Made by a program: the position numbers and the translations under genes. The notes beneath the pieces are model-generated. The model saw nothing but the letters and a program-made list of their open reading frames with translations, had not been told where the DNA came from and did not search any database. Positions 21,169 to 35,245 of a stretch of DNA of 35,245 nt are shown here, piece by piece (the stretch's first letter is position 1; each line of letters opens with the position of its first letter). Source of the DNA: an uncultured Clostridia bacterium (GTDB taxonomy: Bacteria > Bacillota > Clostridia > Lachnospirales > Lachnospiraceae); the NCBI GenBank assembly GCA_946403295.1, contig CAMIZL010000022.1, positions 1 to 35,245 of the forward strand. Reading direction: 5' to 3'.

Positions 21169-21927
21169 TCATTCCGCGTTGCAATACTTATCGCCGAGTC
21201 CGGCAATAGTTCCGTTTGCAAGCATCTTCTCGATCGAAGCATTGATCTTTTCAAGCAACTCACTGTTTCCCTTGGCAACTGCGATCGCGTATTCTTCGTT
21301 ATCGAATGCCCGGTTATCTTCCACTATAACGAGTCCCTTGTTATCGGCGATATATTTTGAAGCCGTAGCCGAATCGATAACGACTGCGTCACACTTGCCG
21401 TTTACAAGCTCCATAACGCACTCTGTTCCTTTTTTGAAGGACTCGTATCTGTATCCGAGCTTACCTATACATGTCTCACCGGTATATCCCTGAACTACCG
21501 CCGTGAATTTGTCCGCAAGGTCTGCAGCCGACTTTATGGGAGAGCCTTCTTTTGTAATGATGACCTGAGTAGCCGAATAATAAGGGATCGAGAAATCAAC
21601 CGATTCCGCACGATCCTCTGTAACCGTCAATCCTGCGATAACGGCATCAAGCTGATTGTTCTGTAATGCAACAAGAAGCGAATCAAATTCCATGTTCTCG
21701 ATCAAGGTTTCCTTATCCATGTCCTGACCGATCTGCTTTGCGATCGCTATATCGATACCGTCGAACTCACCGATCAATCCTTTTGCAGCCACAAATTCAA
21801 AAGGCGGGAATTCCGCATTTGTTCCGAATTTGATCGTTTCCGACGAAGATTTTCCGCAGGCCGTTAAAGAAGCGACCGCGAGAACCGCGATAAGTACGAT
21901 AGCAATGATCCTAAATGATTTTTTCAT
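21169..21927 (-). CDS. amino-acid ABC transporter substrate-binding lipoprotein
   Basis: Family 3 extracellular solute-binding protein for polar amino acids. The ATG at 21925-21927 (MKKSFRIIAIVLIAV) follows GGAGGG; an in-frame upstream ATG is not supported by a ribosome site. The lipobox LTAC puts the mature N-terminal lipidated Cys at about residue 24. Typical features follow: IKFGTNAEFPPFEF, FDGIDIAIAKQIG, DAVIAGLTVTEDRAESVDFSIPYY and GYTGETC. The specific amino acid cannot be read. It is the last and probably most expressed gene of its operon; a hairpin lies just upstream of its ribosome site. Confidence 0.93.
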   Translation of the reverse strand: MKKSFRIIAIVLIAVLAVASLTACGKSSSETIKFGTNAEFPPFEFVAAKGLIGEFDGIDIAIAKQIGQDMDKETLIENMEFDSLLVALQNNQLDAVIAGLTVTEDRAESVDFSIPYYSATQVIITKEGSPIKSAADLADKFTAVVQGYTGETCIGKLGYRYESFKKGTECVMELVNGKCDAVVIDSATASKYIADNKGLVIVEDNRAFDNEEYAIAVAKGNSELLEKINASIEKMLANGTIAGLGDKYCNAE

Positions 21928-21944
21928 ATCTGTCCCTCCTATTA

Positions 21945-21965
21945 AACGGCGATCTTTCCGCCGTT
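21945..21965 (-). promoter_or_regulatory. intercistronic hairpin before the binding-protein gene
   Basis: AACGGCG pairs with CGCCGTT around a 7-nt loop, ending 6-8 nt before the GGAGGG ribosome site of the binding-protein gene. Such hairpins often protect the downstream mRNA after processing, giving more binding protein than permease. No U-tract follows, so it is not a terminator. This is inferred from position. Confidence 0.5.
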
Positions 21966-22054
21966 GATTATCATATAATGAATCCTTTGCTCCCAATCCC
22001 CCGGGTTCACGCGCGTGTCAAAACCCAGCCGGCGAAAAGCTTCGTGTATCCCTG

Positions 22055-22777
22055 TCAAAGTACCTTGCTGAGAAAGAGCTTCGTGCGCTCGTTTTGAGGA
22101 TTGTCAAATATCTCTTCCGGTGTACCGCTCTCCATTATTATTCCCTGATCCATAAAGAGCACCCTTGAAGAAACTTCTTTCGCAAATCCCATCTCATGCG
22201 TGACTACGACCATCGTCATGCCTGATCTGGCAAGGCTTTTGATAACATCGAGAACCTCTCCTACCATCTCGGGATCAAGTGCCGATGTGGGTTCATCGAA
22301 CAACATGATCTCAGGGTTCATGGCAAGAGCTCTTGCTATCGCAACACGCTGTTTCTGACCGCCCGAAAGCGACGCCGGATATGAATCGGCTTTTTCCGAA
22401 AGCCCTACTCTCGCGAGCAATTCAAGCGCCTTTTCCTTCGCCTCTTCTTTCGTCATTTTTTTGAGGAGTACGGGCGCAAGCGTGACATTGTCCATGATCT
22501 TCAAATGCGGGAACAGATTAAACTGCTGGAATACCATTCCCATCTTTTGTCTGATCAGATTTATATCAACGCCCGGCGCGGTGATAAGCTCGTCATCAAC
22601 GTAAATCTCACCCTCCGTAACATCTTCAAGAAGATTTATGCATCGCAGGAATGTCGATTTGCCCGAACCCGAAGGTCCGATCACCGAAACGACCTCACCG
22701 GGACGGATATGTTCGTTCACGCCCTTCAATACTTCGAGATCGTTAAAATTCTTCTTTAAATTCTTTATCTTTATCAT
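22055..22777 (-). CDS. amino-acid ABC transporter ATP-binding protein (GlnQ type)
   Basis: The 240-residue ATPase begins [20 protein letters not shown]. It has Walker [10 protein letters not shown], signature [15 protein letters not shown], Walker [14 protein letters not shown] and switch His in [16 protein letters not shown] and [19 protein letters not shown] mark the polar amino-acid uptake subgroup (COG1126). It lies between its permease (23-bp gap) and the binding-protein gene. Confidence 0.95.
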
Positions 22778-22799
22778 GCCTGATTCCCCGTGAATGTTA

Positions 22800-23486
22800 T
22801 CATCTGACTTCGGACTGCCGTAATTTCTTTTCTATACGCTTAAGACCTATATTGAGGATCTTGATGATCACGTAATAGATGAACGCTGTCGCAAACAAGG
22901 GCATAAATGCCTTGAACGTCGTACTCTTGATGAGGTCTCCGGCCTTCTGAATATCGACTAGCCCGACATATCCGACGATTGCGGTTTCCTTGATAAGCAC
23001 GATAAATTCGTTCACCAATGCAGGGAAGATGTTCTTGATCGCCTGCGGAAGAATGATATGTATCATCGTCTGCCTGCCGTTGAGGCCGAGCGATCTTCCG
23101 GCTTCGGTCTGACCTTTGTCTATCGAAAGGATTCCCGCTCTGATGACCTCGGCTACATAACCGCCGGAGTTAATACCGAATGCTATGGCGCATATGATCC
23201 ACTTATCCCACAGCACGGTCGCAAACACCACGAAATAAATAAGCATGAGCTGTGTTACGGACGGAGTACCGCGGATAATATCGGTATAAACAAGCCCCAG
23301 GCCGCGAAGCACCTTCTTCTTGGACAAATTGCATATCGCTATAAAAAAACCGATGATAATGCCAAGAACTATCGCAACAAGCGATACCTTGAGCGTTACA
23401 CCGATTCCTCCCAGAAGCAGCTTGTACCTGTCTTCCTTAATAAAACAACTATAAAATTGTTCCGAGATCGTAGTAAAAAAATCCAT
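22800..23486 (-). CDS. amino-acid ABC transporter permease (HisM/GlnP type)
   Basis: The ATG at 23484-23486 ([14 protein letters not shown]) follows GGGAGG; an in-frame ATG 48 bp upstream lies close to the -10 and is unlikely. The 228-residue protein has five membrane segments and the EAA loop [24 protein letters not shown] is clearly present in outline. [17 protein letters not shown] is the family hallmark. It probably works as a homodimer in the membrane with the ATPase. First gene of a permease-ATPase-binding protein operon. Confidence 0.95.
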
Positions 23487-23546
23487 TCTTCCTCCCGACT
23501 CTCCAAAAAATGATCGCAATGCCGTCATAAACATAACGACACTGCG

Positions 23547-23589: not shown

Positions 23590-24294
23590 CTACACGGTAA
23601 ATTCAACGACCGCATAGGGATTTGACTCTTTATCGTTTAAAGAAACAACATATACGGAGCCGTTTTTGTAATAAACGGGATATATCCCGTCTCCGAGTCT
23701 TGCCTGAGCCTTATACTCCACTCTGAGCCGGCGAACTTCTATGTCTTCCTCGAGCATCTCCATGGCCATCCTGACGTATTGTCCGTTATTGACGTGATGA
23801 TTTGCGTCAAGATGATGCTTTGCCACATTTATGGGTTCGAGCATCGTTCCTTCACCGGGCAGCATTATTTTTCTCGGCAGATATTCCATCTCAAGCTTCG
23901 GCTCCACCTTATACGCGTCGACGACCTCCGCGGGTGCGGACACGGGTGTTCCTTTTTCCATGTTCAGGAGCGTCCATACCGTTTGCGCGACAGAGATACG
24001 TTTTCCTCTTTTGTCCTCCATAAAATAATTTCTGTAACCGAGCGGACCTCTTATCATATAAGGGATCGTTCCGATCGTCACATGTTCGCCCTCCGCGGGA
24101 TATCTCTCAATATCGATCTGCCATGAATTTAAGACCCATGCGAGATTCATGGGTTTTAAATATGCCATGCCTATCCCGAGGTCATCCGACTGAAACGTCG
24201 AACAATCCTGATAATAGTCTAAGAGCGCCGTGAGCGTCAATCTCTCGTTTTCATCGGATTCGCTGTAACGGATCCTGCTTTCAAATGTATACAT
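23590..24294 (-). CDS. acyl-ACP thioesterase (FatA/FatB family)
   Basis: A double hot-dog enzyme that releases fatty acids from acyl carrier protein. The 234-residue length fits bacterial family members. The first half begins MYTFESRIRYSESDENERLT and has the LLDYYQDCSTFQSDDLG helix. The catalytic region HHLDANHHVNNGQY (residues 160-173) matches the HxDxNxHxNN pattern. The ATG at 24294 follows AAAGGGG. Only 24 bp separate it from the displaced 3' end of rlmD at 24319, so it was probably co-transcribed with rlmD before the island inserted. What drives it now is unclear. Confidence 0.92.
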   Translation of the reverse strand: MYTFESRIRYSESDENERLTLTALLDYYQDCSTFQSDDLGIGMAYLKPMNLAWVLNSWQIDIERYPAEGEHVTIGTIPYMIRGPLGYRNYFMEDKRGKRISVAQTVWTLLNMEKGTPVSAPAEVVDAYKVEPKLEMEYLPRKIMLPGEGTMLEPINVAKHHLDANHHVNNGQYVRMAMEMLEEDIEVRRLRVEYKAQARLGDGIYPVYYKNGSVYVVSLNDKESNPYAVVEFTV

Positions 24295-24318: not shown

Positions 24319-24384
24319 TCAGGTGAGGTCACTGTTTGCGCCTTCACCTGTTTTCTGTAAAAGTACCACAGTCTCCACGTGGGT
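24319..24384 (-). pseudogene. rlmD: displaced native 3' end of rlmD/rumA
   Basis: In one minus-strand frame the DNA encodes THVETVVLLQKTGEG and a further five residues to a TGA at 24319-24321. HVETVVLL is the conserved extreme C-terminus of 23S rRNA uracil-C5 methyltransferases of the RlmD/RlmCD type. There is no upstream coding body in this frame. A gene that still has its body and ends with the same HVETV segment enters at the right edge of the window, in the same orientation. This fragment is therefore best read as the original tail, split off by integration. Confidence 0.75.
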
Positions 24385-24547
24385 TAGCATTTATTAGTCC
24401 CCCAACATCTAGCGGACTCAGAGAAGCCTTTTCATTTACAAATTCGGAAAGTGCTTTTCTGCTGACTCCAAGCATCTGTGCCGCATCAGTTACAGTCAGT
24501 CCCAAGGGTTTCATTACATCTTCAAGGAAAACACGGCCTGACACCAT
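24344..24547 (-). pseudogene. truncated HigA-type antitoxin remnant
   Basis: The reading frame MVSGRVFLEDVMKPLGLTV, then DAAQMLGVSRKALSEFVNEK, matches the XRE-fold start of HigA antitoxins (usual form HPG..L.E....LGLS...A..LGVSR). After ASLSP the family sequence stops and the frame runs through about 30 bp of unrelated DNA into the attachment repeat and the rlmD tail read out of frame. Helices beyond the HTH are missing. No HigB toxin gene is adjacent. Probably non-functional and left by a deletion at the left end of the island. Confidence 0.65.
24371..24381. repeat. attachment-site-like direct repeat, left end of island
   Basis: GTCTCCACGTG occurs here and at 35194-35204. It encodes the His-Val-Glu-Thr codons of the RlmD C-terminus on the minus strand in both places and in the same frame. 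Beyond the 11-bp identity the flanks diverge apart from AC two bases outside. Confidence 0.7.
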
Positions 24548-24574
24548 AACCCCGTCACCAAAGACCCATTTTTA

Positions 24575-24604
24575 TTGTTTTTTTACACTGGGATGTGGTA
24601 AAAT
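24575..24604 (+). promoter_or_regulatory. candidate promoter of the 476-aa membrane protein gene
   Basis: TTGTTT (24575-24580) and TAAAAT (24599-24604) are separated by 18 bp, 51 bp before the chosen start codon. It is the best promoter candidate in the divergent gap with the HigA remnant. Confidence 0.5.
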
Positions 24605-24655
24605 CTGAAACGGCGGTTTTTTTTGAATATTTCATATAAAAGAGGGGAAAGTTCT

Positions 24656-26074
24656 ATGTCTATTGAAAAACATAATATCAATGAAAAGGAATATCCGCAA
24701 CTCTTTTTCGCAGGCGCGAAGGGAATGCTGGTCTGGGTGGTGCTGAGTCTTGTACTTACGGTTGTTGGCTACTTACTTGAGACCCTGCTTTCGGATGGAG
24801 GCATCACAATGCTGGCCTCAGATATACTTGCAGTGATAGCATTGATGCCGGTCCTGGCTATTTTGGACCGGGGTGACAGCCTGGCTGCCCTGGTTAAAAG
24901 AGAGGCTGCGGAAGACAAGAACGTAAAGACATCTTCATTTTGGTTCGAAAAGGGAGGAAAGCTTCTTAAGGCTTTGGCGATCGTCCGGGTTTTGGGATTC
25001 TTTGTAAAAGTCTACAGGGAAATATCTTTAACTAATTATTTGGTTTTTGGTGGCCTCACAGACGTTGCGGATATAGTCCTGTCGATCCTCATATTGGTAT
25101 TTATCTGCAACGGCTTTGCAGAAAACTGTAAAGATAAGGGTAGCTATATAACAAAAGGGTTTAAGGTCTTAAGGATCATTTTCCCTGTGATCCTTGTACC
25201 GGTGGGAGTTCTCACAGCATTTGAAAGAATTGCTGACAGCTCCTATAGATTTTTGAGCGAATGCATCAGCCTGATCCCGGTGATCATATCATTCGTCGTT
25301 TTCTTTATCTTTGTGCTATACTTCATGAGACAATACACTGAAGAAGGAAATAACGGTGAGGGCGCATTTAAGGGTATTATCAGATACTTCCTTATCACCT
25401 TCTGCCTTCTGGTGGGGTTTGCCGCAGTTATGACAGGCGTTAAGATAATAGCAAATAATTCCGTGATGAAGACAGCTATAGAGGTGTTTGAAAGTACTGA
25501 CAACAGGATGCCGGGTTTTTATGAATTAAAAAGCAGTGAAGATTTCTGGAATCATAAAGATCATAATATGACTGTGGATGTAGGGCAGGTAAAAGTGATG
25601 GATACGGATATCAGCTCCCCCGTAACGCGGCTTGTTCCACTTGGAATGATGACAGCGGAGCATATTGTTACGGGTGATATCATCAATGAGAGATTTGGCT
25701 ACAACTCCCATTACTATCTGCTGGTTTTTGATGACGGAACAAAGGTCCTTTCTGTGATCCCCACTTGCGTATATGAGAGCGCCCTGGCGGGAGGATCAAA
25801 TGGCAGGATCGGTTTTCACACGGAAATAATGACCGAACGTGATTATGAGTTTAATTTGACCGACGGAGAATCGGTGATCGATGGCTATATATTATATTAT
25901 GACAATTACGTATCACCTAAGGTCGATATCGATAAAGCCAATACACTGTTCACAGTGATAGCTAAGATACTTATTGTAGCGGTCAGCATTGCGGCTTACG
26001 TGACAGTTATGGCTTCCGGTTACTGCGACGGACATACTCCGATCTACCGCAGAAAAGATCCTGAACGTAAGTAA
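24656..26074 (+). CDS. unknown multi-pass membrane protein (about 472 aa)
   Basis: I do not recognise this family. It is the only convincing plus-strand gene. The ATG at 24656 follows AGAGGGGAAAG; an in-frame ATG 33 bp upstream lacks a ribosome site. About seven hydrophobic segments are visible: two near residues 25-70, others at VLGFFVKV, VADIVLSILILVFIC, IIFPVILVPVGVL, LIPVIISFVVFFIFVLYF and FLITFCLLVGFAAVM. A soluble region of roughly 150 residues (about 290-435) follows, with FWNHKDHNMTVDVGQVKV, HYYLLVFDDGTKVLSV and a C-terminal helix AKILIVAVSIAAYVTVM. The soluble part is rich in beta-strand-like sequence and may face outside. It has its own promoter and terminator, as expected of island cargo. 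Confidence 0.75.
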   Translation: MSIEKHNINEKEYPQLFFAGAKGMLVWVVLSLVLTVVGYLLETLLSDGGITMLASDILAVIALMPVLAILDRGDSLAALVKREAAEDKNVKTSSFWFEKGGKLLKALAIVRVLGFFVKVYREISLTNYLVFGGLTDVADIVLSILILVFICNGFAENCKDKGSYITKGFKVLRIIFPVILVPVGVLTAFERIADSSYRFLSECISLIPVIISFVVFFIFVLYFMRQYTEEGNNGEGAFKGIIRYFLITFCLLVGFAAVMTGVKIIANNSVMKTAIEVFESTDNRMPGFYELKSSEDFWNHKDHNMTVDVGQVKVMDTDISSPVTRLVPLGMMTAEHIVTGDIINERFGYNSHYYLLVFDDGTKVLSVIPTCVYESALAGGSNGRIGFHTEIMTERDYEFNLTDGESVIDGYILYYDNYVSPKVDIDKANTLFTVIAKILIVAVSIAAYVTVMASGYCDGHTPIYRRKDPERK

Positions 26075-26114
26075 GACCGGTGCAGGGCAGTTACAAGCTC
26101 CGACCTATAAAAAT

Positions 26115-26150
26115 TGGGCAAAGAATATCATTCCTTGCCCATTTATTTAT
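26115..26150. terminator. bidirectional terminator between convergent genes
   Basis: TGGGCAAAGAAT and ATTCCTTGCCCA (26115-26126 and 26130-26141) form a 12-bp stem with one mismatch. It is followed by TTTATTTAT on the plus strand and by ATTTTTAT on the minus strand, so it serves both the membrane protein gene and the LysR gene. Confidence 0.88.
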
Positions 26151-26153
26151 CAC

Positions 26154-27071
26154 TTATTCTTCTGATGGAGCTGCCTTATAGAGCTCCTCTACAAATCTTT
26201 TGCCAATCTGGCTAAGTCCATCTTTATGTATATAACCAATTTCCATAGAGCTATACGGAAGGTGTGCGCTTTCTCTAAGCGGGATAATCTTATAATCACT
26301 CCATCCTACGGCGCCTCTGACAGCTCCCGAACAAAAAGTAAATCCGTTCAGTTTATTCATAATCTGAAGCATGGATGCTCTGTCCGAAACCTTTATTGAA
26401 TACGGATAATCCTGCTCTCCAAAAATCTCCTCCGCCATATATAAAGGACTATCCTTTCCCTGTTCATAGGTTAAAATAGGATATTTTGTGATATCTTCAT
26501 AGTCTATTATGTCTCTGTCTGCAAGCGGATGATTTTTTCCCAGATATACATAAAATCTGCAACTTACAATCTTCTTATATGTCAGAGAATTATCTACAAA
26601 AAGTTTCTTTAAGGCCTCCTTGTTGAAATCACTAAGGAACAAAACCCCAACCTCGCTTGCTGATGTGCTTACATCTTCTATTATCTTGGAAGTAGTCGTT
26701 TCAAGAATTGAAAAATGATATGTTGAAGCATCATAGTCTTTAACAGTATCTGAAAATGCCTCACACACAAAGGAATAATGTTGTGTCGAAACGCTGAATA
26801 CTTTTCTGGCATTACCTTTGCCATCATATCGCCATATGAGCTGATCATACTGATCACAAACTTTCTTTGCATAAAATAGAAAGTCAGATCCTTCAGCTGT
26901 GAGGTTAACCCCTTTATTGGTTCTATTGAAGATAGTTATTCCTGACTCTTCTTCAAGACCTCTTATTTTATTGGTAAGTGTAGGCTGTGACATAAACAGG
27001 CTCTCTGCTGCCTTGTTCATAGAGCCTGTTTGCGCCACAACCATTGCATAGCGTAGCTGTTGCAGTGTCAT
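26154..27071 (-). CDS. LysR-family transcriptional regulator
   Basis: The 305-residue protein has an N-terminal winged helix-turn-helix, MTLQQLRYAMVVAQTGSMN followed by KAAESLFMSQPTLTNKIRGLEE, and a C-terminal periplasmic-binding-like effector domain (residues 90-295). It lies at the downstream end of the sulfur-related cluster and in the same orientation, not divergent as LysR genes often are. By context it may sense a sulfur compound such as O-acetylserine or a sulfonate, as CysB and Cbl do, but the effector is not readable. A TTGTCA element about 60-90 bp upstream may give it its own promoter. The ATG at 27071 follows GAGGG. Confidence 0.92.
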   Translation of the reverse strand: MTLQQLRYAMVVAQTGSMNKAAESLFMSQPTLTNKIRGLEEESGITIFNRTNKGVNLTAEGSDFLFYAKKVCDQYDQLIWRYDGKGNARKVFSVSTQHYSFVCEAFSDTVKDYDASTYHFSILETTTSKIIEDVSTSASEVGVLFLSDFNKEALKKLFVDNSLTYKKIVSCRFYVYLGKNHPLADRDIIDYEDITKYPILTYEQGKDSPLYMAEEIFGEQDYPYSIKVSDRASMLQIMNKLNGFTFCSGAVRGAVGWSDYKIIPLRESAHLPYSSMEIGYIHKDGLSQIGKRFVEELYKAAPSEE

Positions 27072-27194
27072 TCAAAATCCCTCGTATCACTTTTTTGTTT
27101 GAATAATATGCTAACACATCTATTGACAAATGTCTTATTTCAAAAAGATATCTCCGGTAATAAGCAGTGATTATAGGCTTCATTATCTCTTGAT

Positions 27195-27869
27195 TCATTT
27201 TTGAATATCTCTTAACGCAAGCACTCCGCCATCCATTCGATATACTATATCTGCATAATTGTATGCTGACTCATCGTGCGTTACGATTACAACAGCCGCA
27301 CCATCTTTTGCTTTTTGTCGAAGAAGTTCGAATACAATTTGTGTATTATAATCATCAAGATCACCTGTCGGCTCATCTGCAAATACTACAGAAGGCTGAT
27401 TAATTAGTGCTCTTGCAATTGCACATCTTCTGAGTTCTCCTCCAGACAACTGACTTGACAGATACTCCTCTCGATTGGAAAGTCCTAGGAGCTCAATCAG
27501 CTCATCTGCTCTATCTGAATCATTGCCATTATTGTTTGCTAAAAGTATATTCTCCTTAATAGTTAAATTACTAAGTAGACTTTGGCCTTGCGGAATAAAC
27601 CCGATATTTTTGCTTCTAAAGTCAGAAATAAAATCATCGTTCTGCTGATATAAATCGATATCATCATACAAAACGCTTCCTTCTTGCGGTTTCAACAAAC
27701 CGGCCAACACGCTGATAAGCGTTGTTTTCCCACTCCCGGATCTTCCGAAGATAACCGCAACCTTACCGGGAACAATGGTTATATCAACAGAATTTATGAT
27801 AGAGATAGTCTTATCCTTTTTGCCATTTTTAGTATAAGAAACTAATATATTCTTTGCATCGATCATCAT
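27195..27869 (-). CDS. ABC transporter ATPase, MacB/LolD type
   Basis: The 224-residue ATPase has Walker A GRSGSGKTT, signature QLSGGELRRCAIARAL, Walker B VVFADEPTGDLDDYN and switch His in VIVTHDESA. ADEPTGDLD is the hallmark of the MacB/LolD/FtsE group that works with FtsX-type permeases. It starts 38 bp after the FtsX-type permease stop, with a GAAGGG ribosome site. With that permease and the DUF4418 protein it probably forms a mechanotransmission or export system, not an importer. The substrate is unknown. Confidence 0.92.
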   Translation of the reverse strand: MMIDAKNILVSYTKNGKKDKTISIINSVDITIVPGKVAVIFGRSGSGKTTLISVLAGLLKPQEGSVLYDDIDLYQQNDDFISDFRSKNIGFIPQGQSLLSNLTIKENILLANNNGNDSDRADELIELLGLSNREEYLSSQLSGGELRRCAIARALINQPSVVFADEPTGDLDDYNTQIVFELLRQKAKDGAAVVIVTHDESAYNYADIVYRMDGGVLALRDIQK

Positions 27870-27907
27870 GATATTCGCTATTTCCCTTCGAATATGTTGT
27901 TGCTTTC

Positions 27908-29104
27908 CTACTCTCTCAATATCCTTGCTGTATCCACTGACACAGCCTTGTAGGCTGATATCAAACCCGATATTGTTCCAAGAAGCACAACGCTTATAAA
28001 GGTTACAAGGATATAGTATGTGGTTGCAATCACACCGGGAAGCAAATACGGAAGATCAAGTCTGGAACCAATAAGAACACTAAATGAATACATAAATGCT
28101 CCCGTGATGATGATGCCAAACACACTTCCGATAATTCCAATTATAATTGCCTCTGACATAACCAAAACACCCAGCTTCTTTCGTGAAACTCCGATTACTC
28201 TAAGCGCTGCAAACTCTTTCTTTCTCTCACCTGTGATGATGTAGAAAGCTGCTATCAAAATAATTGCTGCAAACACCCATATGATTTTGACAAAAAACGA
28301 AATTGCAGAAGAGATGACACCTAGCCGATCCGAGGTCGAAGTCATCATTGTCCTTGCTCTAACAGCTTTGACTTCGCTGTTGTTGAGATTAATATCAGAT
28401 ACGATCGTATCAATGTCATATCCGTCTTTTACATCAATATAAACAGAAGATATAACATCATCCGGGCTTTGCTTTGATAATATGCTAATCCCTTTATCCT
28501 CCGCTGCCTCTATTAAAGTTTTTACTGTATCACCTGTTGTATATACCGCAGTGTCAAGTCCTGTTCCGGTCTTTTCAAGCTTGCCGACTACAAGAAATTC
28601 CTTTCCATACAATCTCAAGGTATGGCCCACTTTAGTAGAGAGCATTGAACCAACAATGATCTCATTATCCTTAAGCACGCCCTGATAACTTTCATGCAAC
28701 CAAGGTTTGATTGTGAAATCAGTCTCTTCATCAAATCCGATTATCTGAACCTTAACACTACAGCAGTCTGCATTGGCCGACACCAGAAAATATTGCGTCG
28801 ATATCCTATCTACTCCCTCAATACTTTCAAGGTCATTTAAAATATTTTTATCCATATAAAAATATCCGGGTGTTCCCTGAAGCAGGAGATTTTGAAGATC
28901 TACCTCTGATTCTGCATCCTTTGGAAGCACAATGATATCTGCGCCCAATCTTTCATTCAAACTATCAAGTCCGTTATTAAGACTTTTGATAAAGATGCTT
29001 CCCCCAAATAATGACATTGTCAAAATTACGAGTATTAGAGTTAATCCTATCGTTCTTTTTTTATAACTGAATATATTTTTTAACGGCAGTTTCGCTATGT
29101 TCAC
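27908..29104 (-). CDS. FtsX/MacB-type ABC transporter permease
   Basis: The 398-residue protein has a first membrane helix (TIGLTLILVILTMSLFGGS), then an extracellular MacB-like domain of about 200 residues (roughly 40-260). Three C-terminal helices follow: IIWVFAAIILIAAFYIIT, SEAIIIGIIGSVFGIIITGAFMY and ILVTFISVVLLGTISGLIS. GERKKEFAALRVIGVSRKKLG between helices is typical of the family. The start is a GTG that overlaps the DUF4418 stop as GTGA (29101-29104). It pairs with the downstream ATPase. Confidence 0.92.
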   Translation of the reverse strand: MNIAKLPLKNIFSYKKRTIGLTLILVILTMSLFGGSIFIKSLNNGLDSLNERLGADIIVLPKDAESEVDLQNLLLQGTPGYFYMDKNILNDLESIEGVDRISTQYFLVSANADCCSVKVQIIGFDEETDFTIKPWLHESYQGVLKDNEIIVGSMLSTKVGHTLRLYGKEFLVVGKLEKTGTGLDTAVYTTGDTVKTLIEAAEDKGISILSKQSPDDVISSVYIDVKDGYDIDTIVSDINLNNSEVKAVRARTMMTSTSDRLGVISSAISFFVKIIWVFAAIILIAAFYIITGERKKEFAALRVIGVSRKKLGVLVMSEAIIIGIIGSVFGIIITGAFMYSFSVLIGSRLDLPYLLPGVIATTYYILVTFISVVLLGTISGLISAYKAVSVDTARILRE

Positions 29105-29523
29105 TTATTAACTCCCTGCTTATTCTTTTTGATAACACTAATAACTACATCTGCAACCGATACAACAAACACAATCGCGCTAATGACTCTTACTGCAGGC
29201 TGAAAGATACTGATACATCTCATACTGCTCATCATGCAAAGTGAAAAAACAGTTCCAGTAACTAAAAATACGGCTACCGCAATTGGGATCTGTGCAAGTG
29301 TTATACCAAGCTTCACCTTTTCATTACTTATAATAACTGATGCCAATGACTGAACAAAAAGAATAAAGCCAAGTGTCGTAACTGCCAGTTGTGCATAATG
29401 GCAAGCCATTACATGTTCTTCCGACAACGGACAAGCTGCGAATACTGTAAACGATCCGATTGCAAGTATTAATGAAAGTACAAGTTCAATGAACTTTACA
29501 AAATTTCTTTTAAAATAATTCAT
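29101..29523 (-). CDS. DUF4418-like membrane protein
   Basis: The 140-residue protein has four hydrophobic segments: LVLSLILAIGSFTVFAAC, LAVTTLGFILFVQSLAS, LAQIPIAVAVFLVTGTVFSLC and VISAIVFVVSVADVVI. Conserved-looking cysteines lie in FAACPLSE, VMACHYAQ and CMMSSMRC on loops. The CMxxxMRC motif and size fit my memory of DUF4418, which is often next to FtsX-type transporters. Cys and Met in that loop could bind a soft metal or take part in thiol chemistry, but this is inference. It precedes the FtsX permease with a 4-bp overlap and follows the sulfonate-type ATPase. Confidence 0.78.
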   Translation of the reverse strand: MNYFKRNFVKFIELVLSLILAIGSFTVFAACPLSEEHVMACHYAQLAVTTLGFILFVQSLASVIISNEKVKLGITLAQIPIAVAVFLVTGTVFSLCMMSSMRCISIFQPAVRVISAIVFVVSVADVVISVIKKNKQGVNK

Positions 29524-29574
29524 ATTTCATCCTTCCCATTTATCTGATTTAAAACTCATTTATAAACATTCTCT

Positions 29575-30354
29575 TTAGATATTGTATTCCGGTTGCGGAA
29601 TCGCCTGTGCCAATTCGAAAAATTCAAGGATTTGTCGCCTCATTTCAAGAAACGATACACTTCCTCTCTGTCTTGGTCTGGACAAATTCACATCTATAAT
29701 CTTACTAATCTTACCTGGTCTTGGCGTCATGATGACAATTCTATCGCTTAAATATATCGCTTCATCAATATCATGCGTCACCAAAACAATAGTAGTTCCA
29801 TCCTTTTTCCACAATTCCAAGAGTTTATCCTGAAGAGCCGCCCTGGTAAAAGAATCAAGAGCACCCATAGGTTCATCCAAAAGAAGAGCCTTAGGTTCAT
29901 TTATAAGCGCTCTTGCTATGGCGACTCTTTGCGCCATACCACCCGAAATCTGATGTGGATACGACTTCTCAAATCCTTTCAGTCCGACAAGTTCAATATA
30001 GTTTTCTATATTTTCTTTTTTGCTTCTATAAACATTTCTTGCCCTTAAACCATAAGCAATATTATTCCTAACACTCAACCACGGAAAAAGGCTTCCCTGC
30101 TGAAATACGTATCCTCTGGACGGATCAGCTCCTGTGATTGGTGCCCCATCTATGAATAACTGCCCTGTCTGAGGTTTGTCCAGCCCTGCTATAAGACGAA
30201 GAAGTGTTGTCTTGCCACACCCAGATGGTCCTATAATTGATATAAACTCTCCGGATTTTATTTCGAGATCCACATCTTTCAAAGCTTCAACTCTGTTACC
30301 ATCTGAATCTTTATAAATACGATTTACATTACTTATGCTGATAGAACTTTTCAT
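29575..30354 (-). CDS. ssuB: sulfonate/taurine/nitrate-type ABC importer ATPase
   Basis: The 259-residue ATPase has Walker A GPSGCGKTT, signature [15 protein letters not shown], Walker B ALLLDEPMGALD and switch His in VLVTHDIDEAIYLSDR. VFQQGSLFPWLSVRNNI and MTPRPGKISKIIDV mark the SsuB/TauB/NrtD subgroup (COG1116). The ATG at 30354 follows GAGGAAA, 19 bp after the permease stop. The substrate class (sulfonate, taurine, nitrate, thiamine precursor) is not settled by the ATPase; the neighbouring metY favours sulfur. The ssuB symbol is by family, not proven. Confidence 0.87.
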   Translation of the reverse strand: MKSSISISNVNRIYKDSDGNRVEALKDVDLEIKSGEFISIIGPSGCGKTTLLRLIAGLDKPQTGQLFIDGAPITGADPSRGYVFQQGSLFPWLSVRNNIAYGLRARNVYRSKKENIENYIELVGLKGFEKSYPHQISGGMAQRVAIARALINEPKALLLDEPMGALDSFTRAALQDKLLELWKKDGTTIVLVTHDIDEAIYLSDRIVIMTPRPGKISKIIDVNLSRPRQRGSVSFLEMRRQILEFFELAQAIPQPEYNI

Positions 30355-30373
30355 AGCTGTACTTTTCCTCGTT

Positions 30374-31414
30374 TCATACTTTTATAACACCCTGTTGCCA
30401 TCTGAGTACTCTTTTCCTGATAAGACCAATCAGAAAATTGATAAACGAAAAAAGGACAGCCATGATAACAATAGCGGCAAGAACCTTATAATATGCGCTC
30501 CATACCTTGGACTGGTTGATATAATATCCAAGACCTCCCGGCTGACCCAACATCTCGCTCATTACAAGCGTAGTAAATGCCATAGCATTTGCCGAACCGA
30601 TGCCGGTAAATATATCCGGCATCGCATGCGGTATGGCAACATGCAGTATCTGATTAATCTGCCCTCCCCCAAGGACTGTTGCTGCTTCGTAGCTCTGCTT
30701 AGGCGTACTTTGTATACCTTGAGCTGTCAGGAATGCTATCTGAAACCAAGCACAAATTACAATTAAGAATACTGCTGCACTAAATGATGTTGGAAAAAGT
30801 GTAAGCGCAAAAGGCATCCATGCAACTGCCGGCACGACTCCTGTTATCTTAAGAACAGGAAATACCCAATAATATACTTTCGGAAACCATCCAATCAATA
30901 TACCAGTTCCAACTCCAAGCAGTACCCCGCAACTAAAGCCGGCTAAATAAAGCCTAATAGAATATAGCGTATTCTGTACTATGTAGCTTCCTTCTGCAAT
31001 ATATGCTTCTATAATTTGAGCCGGTCCGGGAAAAAACGGTTGTGCAAAGATTTGAATCTTAGTTCCTCCTATATCCCATATGGCAAGAGCTATTCCAAGT
31101 GCAAATCTAAATGCTGCATTTTTTGCATAAAGTTTTCTTTTATCTTTTTGAAAAATCGACCGTATTCCGGATATTGCATATATCAGAATCAATGCTACCA
31201 AAACCACAATGTAAGCACTATTAATATCAAAAGCAATCCTCAGATTCAAAATATTTAACGTATATATTTTGAATGTTACATCTGCCTTTTGAGGGAACAG
31301 GACATTTACCAATATTGCCACGATAAAACCGGATATTGTAAATAGTATCTTTAGAAGCATGAATTTGATGTTCAAGTCATTTTTCTTTTGCTTAACTGTT
31401 TTTAACGTTATCAA
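30374..31414 (-). CDS. ssuC: sulfonate/taurine-type ABC importer permease with extended N-terminus
   Basis: The C-terminal 250 residues match SsuC/TauC permeases (COG0600), with the EAA loop SYEAATVLGGGQINQILHVA and IPHAMPDIFTGIG. At 346 residues it is about 80-90 longer than usual. The N-terminal extension holds two extra hydrophobic segments, LLKILFTISGFIVAILVNVL and AYIVVLVALILIYAISG, separated by an outside loop. The start is probably a TTG at 31414 overlapping the binding-protein stop (TTGA); the ribosome site there is weak, but ATG alternatives within are worse. It lies between the binding protein and ATPase. Confidence 0.85.
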   Translation of the reverse strand: MITLKTVKQKKNDLNIKFMLLKILFTISGFIVAILVNVLFPQKADVTFKIYTLNILNLRIAFDINSAYIVVLVALILIYAISGIRSIFQKDKRKLYAKNAAFRFALGIALAIWDIGGTKIQIFAQPFFPGPAQIIEAYIAEGSYIVQNTLYSIRLYLAGFSCGVLLGVGTGILIGWFPKVYYWVFPVLKITGVVPAVAWMPFALTLFPTSFSAAVFLIVICAWFQIAFLTAQGIQSTPKQSYEAATVLGGGQINQILHVAIPHAMPDIFTGIGSANAMAFTTLVMSEMLGQPGGLGYYINQSKVWSAYYKVLAAIVIMAVLFSFINFLIGLIRKRVLRWQQGVIKV

Positions 31415-32487
31415 TTTCCCACATCTACTTTCTGATATATATTATTTGTGAACTCTTTCGGATCCGTTTCAAGATATCCAATGTCATAGAGACCATTCGC
31501 AAAATATCTCACATTTTCTTCTACAAGCTCATCCCAGTTTTCTGCATGCTGTGTTGCAGACGGATATCCATAACTCTTTACAAGTTCTACTGCCAATTCT
31601 CTGTCTTCAATCGCAGCATAATTTTTCTCTACGATGATATCGACCGCTTTTTCAGGATTTTCATATATCCATTCCTGCGCTTTTCTGTAAGCACGAAGCA
31701 ATGCGGCAACTTCCTCCGGATTCTCTTTAAGTACTTTGGTAGAAGCATATAAGAAGCAGCAGAATTTATCTTTAAAATACTCATCCGTTCCAAGATCGAA
31801 GATTATCTTGACATCTCCTGCCTTTTCATGAATTGATCCAAGTGGATCCCAAAGCGCTGCAACATCAATATCTCCGCTTTTTAAAGCTTCAAACTCAAGA
31901 TTTCCATCAGAATATGGAAGGAATGTCACCTCTCCATCGGCAGGATCTGCAGATATTCCAGCATTTTCAAGCCATAAACTCGCCACCTGATGAGGAGTTC
32001 CACCGATTTCATCCACACCAATCTTCTTGCCTTTCAAATCCTCCACAGTCTCGATATCAGAATCAGTTCTTACCGCAAATTTAATACATCCCTCGTGAAG
32101 ACCATCTACAACCTTTACATCGATTCCATTCTCAATAGACGGGAAGAACTGGAAATCTCCATTTACAATCGGGATTGTGCCGTTGTTCAACCCAATCTTT
32201 CTGGTCTCAAAATCTGCAGAAATCAAAGTTACGTCAAATCCCTCTTCCGCAAAGTAACCCTTTTCATAAGCGATATAAATAGGCGCTCCACAAAGAGCTC
32301 CATCCTTTCCGGGGATATCAATCTTGCCATACTTATAATCCCCATCTGTCGCAGTTGCTCCTCCTTCAATAGTAGAATCGGATGAAGATACCTTTTCGCT
32401 ATCATTAGATGATACTGCACAGCCCGTTAATAGTGAAAAAACAAGCCCAACTGCAACCATCTTTTTTACCCAATTTTTCTTTTTCAT
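31411..32487 (-). CDS. ssuA: sulfonate/nitrate/taurine-type ABC substrate-binding lipoprotein
   Basis: The ATG at 32485-32487 (MKKKNWVKKMVAVGLVFSLL) follows AAAGGAG; an in-frame start 21 bp upstream is less likely. The lipobox LTGC sets the lipidated Cys at residue 23. The 358-residue protein has the NMT1/SsuA-like fold: GAPIYIAYEKGYFAEEGFDV, then DLKGKKIGVDEIGGTPHQV and DIDVAALWDPLG. The Ser/Asp-rich linker after the Cys (SSNDSEKVSSSDS) is usual in Gram-positive lipoproteins. It should deliver substrate to the permease that follows. The ligand is unknown; sulfonates or other organosulfur are suggested by metY. Confidence 0.87.
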   Translation of the reverse strand: MKKKNWVKKMVAVGLVFSLLTGCAVSSNDSEKVSSSDSTIEGGATATDGDYKYGKIDIPGKDGALCGAPIYIAYEKGYFAEEGFDVTLISADFETRKIGLNNGTIPIVNGDFQFFPSIENGIDVKVVDGLHEGCIKFAVRTDSDIETVEDLKGKKIGVDEIGGTPHQVASLWLENAGISADPADGEVTFLPYSDGNLEFEALKSGDIDVAALWDPLGSIHEKAGDVKIIFDLGTDEYFKDKFCCFLYASTKVLKENPEEVAALLRAYRKAQEWIYENPEKAVDIIVEKNYAAIEDRELAVELVKSYGYPSATQHAENWDELVEENVRYFANGLYDIGYLETDPKEFTNNIYQKVDVGN

Positions 32488-32568
32488 ATCATGCTCCTTT
32501 GTAAACACTATTTAATTTCTCTTTTTCATACTCTACAAAATGTTTTACATACGTCTTTTATGCGCCTA

Positions 32569-33891
32569 TTAAGCAACAGAGCTATCAGCATCCAAAAGTC
32601 CAGCCAACTTGAACGCCTGATCTAAATCTGCGATTAGGTCATTCACATCTTCTAGCCCAACTGAAATTCTGATAAGATTTGCAGGGATATCTGCAAGCTC
32701 TTTCTCTTCATCTGTAAGCTCACTGTGAGTTGTATCCGGCGAATTTACGATAAGTGAACGCACATCGCCAAGATTTACAAGATAATGGAATAGCTTAAGA
32801 TTATTAAGGAATAGTGCTTCCTTCTCCTTGCCTCCCTTGATTCCAAAAGAAAGAAGTCCTCCACCACCATTTGTCAGATGTTTATCCGCAACTTCTTTAT
32901 ATTTATATGAGCCAAGCTTAGGATAACGAACCCATTCTACTGCCGGTGAGTTTTCAAGATACTCAGCAATCTTTAAAGCATTTGCACTCTGCTTCGCAAT
33001 TCTTTCCGAAAGAGTCTCAAGGCCCAGAATTCCAAGATACGCATCATTAGGTGAAAGTGCAGCTCCCAAAAGGTTAAGGTATACAAGCGTTGCACGGAAT
33101 ATGAAAAAGTTGTCCGGGAACACTTCTTTAGGACTCTTACCTTTAAGCATCACAATTGGCTCATAAAACTGTGGATATCTGTCCTGGGTATAATAGTCAA
33201 GCTTACCATTGTCAAGAATAAGACCTGCGATGATATTACCATGTCCTGTAAGTCCCTTGGTCGCAGAATAAACAACGATGTCAGCACCATGTTCAAGCGG
33301 TCTGTAGATATAAGGAGTTGCAACTGTATTATCAACAACAACCGGTACACCATGCTTATGGGCCACTTCGGATATCGCATCAATATCCGGAAGATATGCA
33401 TTTGGATTGGATATCGACTCAAGATACACTCCCTTAATGTCATCTCCCTCAGATAGTTCCTTATCAAGTTCTTCCGGATCAAGAACACTTCTTGTAAGTT
33501 TTATTTTCACTCCAACTTCCGGAAAAAGTCTATCGAAACTATCAATCGTACCTCCATAAAGGTAAGGTGAAGCGAGAATTGTTCCGCCTTTTGCTGCAAG
33601 ATTTAGAAGTGTGTATGCAATTGCTGCCATTCCTGATCCTACTGCCACAGCATTCTTAGCACCTTCGAGGGCCTTAACTCTTTCAGAAAAATAAGTTACC
33701 GTAGGATTGCCGACTCTTGTATAAAGAAATCCTGCTTCCTTATAAGTAAATAAATTCTCAGCATGCTCAGTATCTCTGAAATCAAATGCTGCTGTGTGAT
33801 AGATTGGAGGTGAAACCGAATACTTATTATCAGCAGAATCATATCCTGCCTGAATCTTCAACGTGTCAAAACCATATTCTTTGTCTGCCAT
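32569..33891 (-). CDS. metY: O-acetylhomoserine sulfhydrylase (MetY type)
   Basis: A cytoplasmic PLP enzyme that replaces the acetyl group of O-acetylhomoserine with sulfide or methanethiol, giving homocysteine or methionine. The PLP lysine is Lys212 in YSATKGLTGHG. Other Cys/Met-metabolism motifs include YTRVGNPT, VGSGMAAI, ESISNPNAYLPD and VVDNTVATPYIYRPLEHGAD. At about 440 residues it is MetY sized, longer than the about 390 of MetB or MetC. The second ATG (33889-33891) suits the AGAAAGGAAG ribosome site better than that at 33897. It is first in a run with the importer (81-bp gap to the binding-protein gene). Confidence 0.93.
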   Translation of the reverse strand: MADKEYGFDTLKIQAGYDSADNKYSVSPPIYHTAAFDFRDTEHAENLFTYKEAGFLYTRVGNPTVTYFSERVKALEGAKNAVAVGSGMAAIAYTLLNLAAKGGTILASPYLYGGTIDSFDRLFPEVGVKIKLTRSVLDPEELDKELSEGDDIKGVYLESISNPNAYLPDIDAISEVAHKHGVPVVVDNTVATPYIYRPLEHGADIVVYSATKGLTGHGNIIAGLILDNGKLDYYTQDRYPQFYEPIVMLKGKSPKEVFPDNFFIFRATLVYLNLLGAALSPNDAYLGILGLETLSERIAKQSANALKIAEYLENSPAVEWVRYPKLGSYKYKEVADKHLTNGGGGLLSFGIKGGKEKEALFLNNLKLFHYLVNLGDVRSLIVNSPDTTHSELTDEEKELADIPANLIRISVGLEDVNDLIADLDQAFKLAGLLDADSSVA

Positions 33892-33897
33892 AATCAT

Positions 33898-34094
33898 TAC
33901 TTCCTTTCTAATATTTTTGATTGTTTAACATAAGCATTCTTAATGTTTTTGCATTGTTTTCATTAGGTGGTTGTTAACTGTTGGAACTTATATTGCCACT
34001 TGAACAAATAGGTGTCCATAATCAAATCCTGATAGTTGTTATAAGCTTATTTAAGAGGTATAGCCCAACTTTGTAACGGTTATAAAAATTTGCG
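33898..34094. other. upstream region of metY
   Basis: About 200 bp of AT-rich DNA that should hold the promoter of the metY-importer operon. A weak TTACAA-17-TAAATA pair lies on the minus strand (34048-34076), with a 10-bp palindrome ATAAGCTTAT (34041-34050) overlapping the -10. I see no SAM, T-box or other riboswitch. A LysR site could be here, but no clear T-N11-A dyad stands out. Confidence 0.35.
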
Positions 34095-34131
34095 AAAAAA
34101 AAGGAATCGAGCTGCCTCGATTCCTTTTTTA
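34095..34131. terminator. bidirectional intrinsic terminator
   Basis: GGAATCGAG and CTCGATTCC (34103-34111 and 34116-34124) form a 9-bp stem extended by flanking A and T runs, with a 4-nt loop. T-runs lie on both strands. It closes the XRE transcription unit before metY. Confidence 0.9.
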
Positions 34132-34150
34132 TCTTATTTCATTATGTTAT

Positions 34151-34389
34151 CTATTTTCCATCCGGAAAACTTGTAAATGCATTTCTTTCAAATTCCGGAT
34201 AGCCGTATTTCTCTTTTGCATCACATCCATAATGGATTATCACAGTTTCCAAACACTTTTACTTATTTCATATACTCCATCGTGATATTCTCCTTCTCCT
34301 TCAAAGAAGGTTTCGTTGAGCAACACCTTGCCACCAAGTTCGGCGTCATAATCAATGCGGAATTTAATCTCGGAGTGCAGACAAGTTGT
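34151..34389 (-). pseudogene. frameshifted coding remnant downstream of the XRE gene
   Basis: No open gene spans this stretch, but protein-like sequence without a start is visible in two frames. In the XRE frame, just past its stop, the minus strand reads LHSEIKFRIDYDAELGGKVL and continues through ETFFEGEGEYHDGVYEISK to a TGA at 34240. Another frame then continues HYGCDAKEKYGYPEFERNAF and ends TSFPDGK at 34151. The compositional quality (acidic, aromatic, no stop clusters) suggests a decayed 3' part of a gene with one frameshift. I do not recognise the family. Confidence 0.45.
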
Positions 34390-35061
34390 TTACCTCATGA
34401 TACCGCCATGGAAATAACATTCGTATACTTTCACATTATTGCAATAGATTTCTTCGTATCCCTGAAACCAGGAAAACTCCCCGGTAACGCTGCATTTATA
34501 TGTATATTCACCTGACTGATAATACTCCGGTCCTCGATACGGCGTTTTTCTATCCGCTTTACGAAGAGCTTCTTTCAAAAAATCACCACTGAATCGCTGA
34601 TCTAATACCCTTCCAAGATAATTCATCGCATACTGTATTTTGCCATCGACCCAGATTGCTTCTTCACCGGCAAACTTTTCACCACCGACATACGTGTCAT
34701 GATATGTATATGGTCCGCTGCTGTATGAAAAGTCGTGAGAATCCAGCCTTGTTGAATCTGCCTCATTCATATAGGCGGCATAAGTATTCACATTGGCTTC
34801 AAGTCGGAACTCGATCAGTTTGCTGATATCTTTATCCTCGGTATTCTCATAGTTAACCATACATTCCTGATCTCGAACCAGATAATCTACAGTGACGTTG
34901 AACAGATTGCTTATCTGAATAAGATTACTAATGTCAGGATACACCTGTCCTGATTCCCATTTTGCAATCGCCTGTCTTGATACATCAAGCTTTTCCGCAA
35001 GTTCTTCCTGTGTCATTCCCTTACTCTTGCGAATCAGTTTTAGTTTCTCTGAAAAAATCAT
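34390..35061 (-). CDS. XRE-family regulator with C-terminal DUF5680-like domain
   Basis: The ATG at 35059-35061 (MIFSEKLKLIRKSKGMTQEE) follows GGAGGTGATGAG, a near-perfect ribosome site; an in-frame ATG 39 bp upstream is not supported. Residues 1-65 form a Cro/CI helix-turn-helix: MTQEELAEKLDVSRQAIAKW followed by ESGQVYPDISNL. The C-terminal 115 residues (GEKFAGEEAIWVDGKIQYAM, SGDFLKEALRKA, WFQGYEEIYCNNVKVYE and FHGGIMR) resemble DUF5680, a domain fused to such regulators and of unknown function. It lies at the right end of the island near the attachment repeat, a common place for a regulator. Confidence 0.85.
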   Translation of the reverse strand: MIFSEKLKLIRKSKGMTQEELAEKLDVSRQAIAKWESGQVYPDISNLIQISNLFNVTVDYLVRDQECMVNYENTEDKDISKLIEFRLEANVNTYAAYMNEADSTRLDSHDFSYSSGPYTYHDTYVGGEKFAGEEAIWVDGKIQYAMNYLGRVLDQRFSGDFLKEALRKADRKTPYRGPEYYQSGEYTYKCSVTGEFSWFQGYEEIYCNNVKVYECYFHGGIMR

Positions 35062-35165
35062 TCTCATCACCTCCAGGACCAATATATCGTTTCTCAACAC
35101 AAAGATACATTAGCCATTGGTTGCTATTTCGCTACTTTTGTTATACATTGATATGATGCTATGCC

Positions 35166-35245
35166 TCATGAAGTATGGGACAATAAACATACCGTCTCCA
35201 CGTGCACCGTATGCGGGAACATATCGCAACACCTTACCTTAACGA
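35166..35245 (-). CDS. rlmD: 23S rRNA (uracil-C5)-methyltransferase, C-terminal end (partial)
   Basis: The last 25 codons before a TGA at 35166-35168 read VKVRCCDMFPHTVHVETVCLL then SHTS. DMFPHT-HVE is the conserved C-terminal signature of RlmD/RlmCD-type (RumA) methyltransferases, which make 5-methyluridine in 23S rRNA using SAM. The catalytic body lies beyond the right edge. The last residues after HVETV differ from the tail at 24319-24384, as expected if an integrated island has substituted the 3' end while keeping the gene functional. The exact paralogue (RlmD or RlmC) is not certain. Confidence 0.75.
   Translation of the reverse strand, partial: VKVRCCDMFPHTVHVETVCLLSHTS
35194..35204. 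repeat. attachment-site-like direct repeat, right end of island
   Basis: The second copy of GTCTCCACGTG lies inside the C-terminal coding sequence of the rlmD partial gene, in the same frame and orientation as the left copy at 24371-24381. It is preceded by AC one base further out, also shared with the left copy. Confidence 0.7.

Follow-up and report, generated by a model that had tools for sequence, protein, structure and literature searches.

A decayed, cassette-bearing island between two 3' ends of rlmD in an uncultured Clostridia bacterium, probably derived from a serine-integrase element

The window analysed here, that is, the whole stretch of 35,245 nucleotides, is the complete contig C22 (CAMIZL010000022.1) of the 65-contig assembly G000 of an uncultured Clostridia bacterium, the host of this work. 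Its right-hand part holds an island of 10.8 kb (24382-35193) enclosed between two pieces of the 3' end of rlmD. A first-pass annotation had pointed to two in-frame RlmD C-termini, 10.8 kb apart and sharing an 11-bp direct repeat, and this observation was confirmed by a repeat search, by shuffled sequences and by inspection of the reading frames. The features of both junctions and of the adjoining flank, in which the repeats are taken as candidate attachment (att) sites, are the following.

35205-35245, minus strand: the 41 bp of the rlmD body that adjoin the core; counted with the core and the 3 bases beyond it, a 55-bp stretch that recurs unchanged at positions 44079-44133 of contig C12 of the same assembly
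35194-35204, no strand assigned: attL core, CACGTGGAGAC on the minus strand (repeat search and site alignment)
35166-35193, minus strand: putative element-supplied RlmD tail, ...VCLLSHTS and stop, with the attL arm (translation and site alignment)
34311-34367, minus strand: 3' stub (57 bp) from a large serine integrase of rlmD type, KFRIDYDAELGGKVLLNE, truncated immediately ahead of the att crossover region (homologue comparison)
24382-24413, minus strand: 32 bp of unknown origin beside attR, candidate attP arm (site alignment and pattern searches)
24371-24381, no strand assigned: attR core, CACGTGGAGAC on the minus strand (repeat search and site alignment)
24319-24370, minus strand: displaced native RlmD tail, VVLLQKTGEGANSDLT and stop (translation, comparison with the tails of relatives)
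23590-24294, minus strand: acyl-ACP (acyl carrier protein) thioesterase gene, chromosomal flank
21169-23534, minus strand: amino-acid-type ABC transporter genes (permease, ATPase, substrate-binding protein), with orthologues downstream of uninterrupted rlmD in the relatives G001 and G008

The repeat GTCTCCACGTG occurs twice in the window (24371-24381 and 35194-35204), and in 100 shuffled versions it appeared on average 0.01 times, at most once and never in two copies. When both sites are aligned on the minus strand, the 11 common base pairs are followed by one mismatch and GT, with only scattered identities in the rest of the 71 columns. In the complete host assembly CACGTGGAGACNGT is present three times, at both window sites and at the end of the intact rlmD on C12 (family match 42728-44128), always at an rlmD end, and the shorter CACGTGGAG seven times. 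On the minus strand both C-termini are in frame, the right-edge one reading CDMFPHTVHVETVCLLSHTS and the left one, from 24381 to 24319, HVETVVLLQKTGEGANSDLT, each closed by a stop codon. Moreover, when the flanks are joined in silico at the 11-bp repeat, an open CDMFPHTVHVETVVLLQKTGEGANSDLT with its stop results, resembling the uninterrupted tails of G001 (HVETVALLTKVS, stop) and G008 (HVETVVCLSRVAY, stop). The GC content of the island is 0.393, as compared with 0.482 for positions 1-24370, and the values per kilobase range from 0.367 to 0.415 over 25001-35000 and from 0.437 to 0.527 over 1-24000.

The rlmD genes of G001 and G008 are 80% identical to that of the host over the 732 bp searched. 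In both relatives the gene order is rlmD, kinase genes, then permease, ATPase and binding-protein genes, whose products are 91-93%, 95% and 82-84% identical, respectively, to those encoded from 23534 to 21169 in the window. Since these transporter orthologues stand downstream of an uninterrupted rlmD, the left tail and its flank represent the native downstream side of the gene. The first-pass annotation had further proposed that the insertion parted rlmD from a thioesterase gene 24 bp away. The distance is as claimed (the ATG lies at 24294) and this neighbourhood is likely to have existed in the species before the insertion; the detail of original adjacency is nevertheless weakened by G001 and G008, where kinase genes take that place and the thioesterase has none downstream of rlmD. 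A thioesterase match was obtained in 3 of the 24 genus genomes searched, host included, and no rlmD was detected in the stretches around the gene in the other two. The rlmD-thioesterase neighbourhood as a general rule was consequently rejected, as it is not conserved in the relatives examined. The annotation had expected an uninterrupted rlmD followed by the thioesterase in a close relative, and had counted as contrary evidence a native SHTS tail together with a thioesterase preceded by something else. The uninterrupted gene was indeed found, in relatives rather than in the same species; the thioesterase half of the contrary evidence was partly encountered, as described, and a native SHTS tail was not seen.

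The statement that the island contains no integrase holds for intact genes and has to be amended as regards the 57-bp stub. Window positions 34365-34300 read KFRIDYDAELGGKVLLNETFFE, which, in a search against the window alone, was matched with an E value of 7e-8 by the C-terminus of the smaller integrase on contig C73 of G314, a genome of another genus. That contig carries two adjacent full-length large serine integrases (L102:1369-5081) with open frames of 670 and 580 codons. The 580-codon gene (L102:3339-5078) has Resolvase, Recombinase and Zn_ribbon domains and ends in ...KFRVDYDAEAGGKVLLNENDVESCVLLTRVSN before its stop, and over 70 aa the C-terminal domain of the 670-codon product shows 41% identity with the RlmD tail on C12. 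In addition, a serine-integrase gene of G135, whose resolvase part lies in a separate open reading frame (ORF), ends in VEVVSLLQRVSNTRPKAITLDVDMEDYYRIKGDRTND; this tail resembles those of RlmD in G003 (74% over 31 aa) and, more distantly, G020 (59%, with gaps), and also the sequence following the rlmD core of G314 in another, downstream frame (88% over 26 aa). An exchange of 3' ends between rlmD and integrase genes is thus apparent, from these sequences, in relatives of the host. Of 30 rlmD loci fetched from the genus of G314, 18 showed the motif searched for, a third of them (6) with RlmD tails of 42-116 aa from the motif on, and the 12 without it were left unclassified. A tyrosine integrase near the island was also considered and rejected, both Phage_integrase matches of the assembly being on contig C1.

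Most of the island is occupied by a gene cassette, which was found in other genomes as well and whose components are listed below.

26105-34224, minus strand: mobile sulfur cassette; nucleotide identity of 95.2% to SIG321 (26105-34224) and of 95.4% to G314 (26143-34133)
32569-33897, minus strand: O-acetylhomoserine sulfhydrylase-like enzyme dependent on pyridoxal phosphate (Cys_Met_Meta_PP); best NCBIfam match below cut-off
31411-32508, minus strand: NMT1/SsuA-like substrate-binding protein (Pfam/NCBIfam)
30374-31414, minus strand: ABC importer permease (Pfam/NCBIfam)
29575-30354, minus strand: ABC importer ATPase, nearest to SaoA, nitrate and taurine types, below cut-off
29101-29523, minus strand: DUF4418 protein (Pfam)
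27908-29104, minus strand: FtsX/MacB-like permease (Pfam/NCBIfam)
27195-27869, minus strand: LolD-like ATPase, below cut-off
26154-27071, minus strand: LysR-type regulator (Pfam/NCBIfam)

The enzyme and the importer resemble O-acetylhomoserine sulfhydrylase and ABC families of the sulfonate/nitrate/taurine type, all below the curated NCBIfam cut-offs, and a role of the cassette in the uptake of organosulfur compounds may be proposed from these resemblances. Among the matches listed for 397 family genomes (the host among them; per genome, the two best first-look candidates were scored), G314 is the only other genome that matches the island interior at 95% nucleotide identity over 8 kb, the remaining ones being shorter or weaker. 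There, the cassette is found about 3.0 kb downstream of rlmD and in the same orientation, with an RlmD only 52% identical to that of the host. At least 18 loci in GTDB 220 genome contigs encode relatives of the sulfhydrylase-like enzyme, the closest among the matches listed (99%) being in SIG321, a metagenome-assembled genome (MAG) titled Lachnospiraceae bacterium. In SIG321 an intact FMN-reductase-like gene precedes the cassette and metB/cysK-like genes follow it (names read from translations). The contig end upstream of the reductase-like gene carries the degenerate N-terminus of a serine integrase, with 65% identity to the 580-codon integrase of G314; the candidacy of SIG321 as a plain chromosomal donor is weakened by this pseudogene. 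The three cassette copies are mutually 95.2-96.5% identical.

The island is best explained as a decayed composite of the rumA/rlmD-targeting large-serine-integrase kind, now similar to a cis-mobilizable element (CIME), a reading to which we assign a probability of roughly 0.85. The first-pass proposal of a site-specific integration at the 3' end of rlmD by a now decayed element is thereby supported, not only by the uninterrupted rlmD and the conserved transporter genes of two relatives, but also by the integrase stub of rlmD/rumA type, by cargo that recurs at about 95% identity, once near rlmD in another genus and once next to an integrase pseudogene in the named MAG, and by the rumA precedent (PMC4701971). 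The order of events that we infer, including the integrase that acted and any present mobility, would be as follows. An element of this kind would have inserted at the rlmD codons HVET, its integrase crossing attP with the 3' end of the gene, by which RlmD's own tail (VVLLQKTGEGANSDLT) would have been left at the far side and a short in-frame tail supplied by the element, CLLSHTS, gained. Later events would have deleted the integrase and any transfer genes, leaving over the 57-bp stub, the 3' fragments of a GNAT-like and an FMN-reductase-like gene and the 5' fragment of a HigA-like gene, and the 8-kb cassette (sulfhydrylase-like enzyme, SsuABC-like importer, LolCD-like ABC pair and LysR regulator) would have stayed as cargo. 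With two att sites and no machinery seen, movement could be expected only if an integrase of matching specificity acted on the island.

The streptococcal rumA elements use a single serine integrase, have repeats of 2-21 bp and swap the 3' end of rumA with that of the integrase gene (PMC4701971). Integrative and conjugative elements (ICEs), decayed ICEs (dICEs) and integrative and mobilizable elements (IMEs) integrated at rumA are described in streptococci, together with CTn5 in C. difficile 630 delta-erm (PMC4701971, PMC5357655), while the CIME composites described in one source lie at rpmG, rpsI, fda and rplL, and classical CIMEs measure 1.2-13 kb (PMC7563491). Like the rumA elements, the island represents an insertion at the 3' end of rlmD with a short direct repeat (11 bp), is of the serine-integrase type, and has the methylase C-terminus replaced with the original 3' end at the far junction, an arrangement corroborated in relatives. 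Unlike them, it has no intact integrase, and no serine-integrase gene holding the repeat was found at attR, only the internal stub. Its cargo is also different, a sulfur-type cassette whose nearest named relative is a Lachnospiraceae MAG and not a streptococcus. Neither conjugation genes nor a relaxase, as would be expected of an ICE, or a relaxase alone, as in an IME, were seen in a Pfam scan of the ten main island ORFs. Since no integrase stands at attR and no transfer gene was seen, the island is not filed as an ICE or IME. The likeness to CIMEs is closer in that putative att sites appear to be kept on both sides (the direct repeat in its two expected settings), that no functional recombination or mobilisation genes were seen in the same ten ORFs, and that the size falls within the published range. 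The site, rlmD, differs from the four listed for CIME composites, and the stub is the sole pointer to ICE or IME descent; as regards descent by deletion, the stub and gene fragments with microhomology joints are present, and no transfer-gene remnant was seen. No title describing rlmD insertions in Lachnospiraceae was found in a literature search by title, which is not a claim that they are unpublished. The present analysis extends to other anaerobic Firmicutes the rumA/rlmD serine-integrase mechanism reported in streptococci and C. difficile, with sequence evidence that RlmD and serine integrases there swap their 3' ends, a metabolic cassette common to different genera at one gene end, and two different islands attached to one rlmD within one assembly.

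Several observations weigh against this reading. The rlmD core was absent from all 27 Recombinase loci (2.0-3.4 kb each) of the host genus, and no Recombinase-domain gene was found in the host assembly. At attR the HigA-like fragment adjoins the core in place of the integrase 3' end known from streptococcal elements, and no empty site of the same species was found. The candidate attR arm was recovered, with up to 3 mismatches allowed, only from the window itself among the 397 family genomes, and had no exact match in viral contigs. Furthermore, the cassette ends differ among copies (26143-34133 versus 26105-34224) and no second core was present, under the pattern used, in the G314 stretch 8000-36000; independent captures of the cassette are therefore possible.

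The right edge deserves separate attention, since the first-pass annotation had taken the C-terminus there for the end of a gene body. That body does exist, on C12; it lies outside the window, C22 holding only the last 55 bp before the branches diverge. This 55-bp overlap falls inside C12 and not at its end, so that the rlmD body forks in the assembly graph into two continuations, C12 having another tail and another island beyond the shared stretch. At 69 of the 130 contig ends of the host assembly, exactly 55 bp are shared with the 300-bp end region of another contig, probably the mark of a graph built with k=55. Although C22 terminates exactly in a 55-mer also present inside C12, such an end is thus ordinary, and a misjoin of unrelated sequences is very improbable, as the branches stay together until 3 bases past the att core and the identical core recurs at the other island end, 10.8 kb away. 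In another assembly, a contig (L056, G016:C111) stops inside the 3' end of rlmD, immediately short of the core position, and may mark a similar fork. The continuation on C12 (G000:C12:44128-60385, L018) is a defence-gene island reaching from rlmD to the contig end at 60385, with a SymE-like gene, weak homologues of LmuA/LmuB (Lamassu), two DNA methyltransferases and a LeoA/LeoBC-like (dynamin-like) GTPase pair. The RlmD tail on C12 comprises 103 aa from the HVET motif on and resembles a serine-integrase C-terminal domain. Both islands reach one rlmD body through one 55-bp node, both use a VET core with a VCLLS-type tail, and tandem CIME composites are known (PMC7563491); hence the two could sit, or have sat, in tandem at one rlmD, the junction of body and window stemming from cells in which the C12 element was excised. 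A tandem array predicts, however, the end of the C12 element before the window island and a break of C22 at the core, and C22 instead includes 41 bp of the rlmD body; the bin yielded no additional copy of the core pattern, and the end of C12 matched no other stretch of the host assembly examined, the far end of its island not being found. The straight run from island into body speaks for an alternation of the two islands, with the reservation that path resolution by the assembler could conceal tandem or other junctions, and accretion is regarded as unlikely.

As to the kind of element, a phage- or satellite-like family, rather than a conjugative one, is suggested by KilA-N and helix-turn-helix (HTH) genes that G314, G135 and G352 carry close to rlmD or to the DUF5680 gene, in company with a serine integrase, and by the resemblance, below cut-off, of the DUF5680 regulator to RstR-type repressors. 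This origin is doubtful, given that the ten main island ORFs showed no virion gene, that two attachment-arm patterns had no exact match in viral contigs and that no relative of the cassette enzyme was found in the viral contigs searched. The arrival of the cassette alone, by homologous or illegitimate recombination, with the 11-bp repeat marking an older, unrelated insertion, would fit the internal joints, which are microhomologies of 4 and 8 bp and not att sites, as well as the variable cassette ends; it is quite improbable considering that the cassette is a neighbour of rlmD in two genera, that a third genome has it next to a pseudogene of an rlmD-type integrase, and that 87 bp separate the integrase stub from the cassette edge. 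With the decayed serine-integrase composite retained as the preferred explanation, it may be speculated, tentatively, that the rlmD end is a swap slot in this bacterial group, where serine-integrase elements leave att and integrase-stub relics and through which cargo as different as a sulfur cassette and a phage-defence island passes between genera, both occurring as alternatives in one natural population.

The remaining features lie at the island edges, around the cassette.

34390-35100, minus strand: HTH_3-DUF5680 regulator next to attL (Pfam); copies 87% (G352) and 89% (G258) identical in nucleotides, and an interrupted copy in G135
34217-34314, minus strand: 3' fragment of a GNAT-like gene, 99% identical to loci L100 and L101; overlaps the integrase stub by 4 bp (GNAT name read from the L100 ORF)
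34131-34224, minus strand: 3' fragment of an FMN-reductase-like gene, intact in SIG321; overlaps the GNAT-like fragment by 8 bp (name read from translation)
24623-26074, plus strand: putative membrane protein of about 480 aa; only sub-threshold DUF2207_C similarity, no family above cut-off
24414-24547, minus strand: HigA-like HTH gene, 5' part, homologous to the L100 gene as far as 24414

The genes matching the HigA-like and GNAT-like fragments stand together within 1.4 kb in L100 (G329), a pair that hints at the backbone which received the cassette. An rlmD-family gene is found about 9 kb (G352) and about 13 kb (G135) upstream of the DUF5680 gene, its product being 33% and 31% identical, respectively, to the host RlmD body, and no rlmD was detected in the G258 stretches examined around the DUF5680 copy. 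In G352 and G135 an integrase stub directly follows the DUF5680 gene. In addition, three junctions between integrase ends and tails, near 608, 3038 and 4823, were observed in L094 (G352:C8:1-6500), which, within 6.5 kb, suggests repeated element accretion downstream of an rlmD-family gene.

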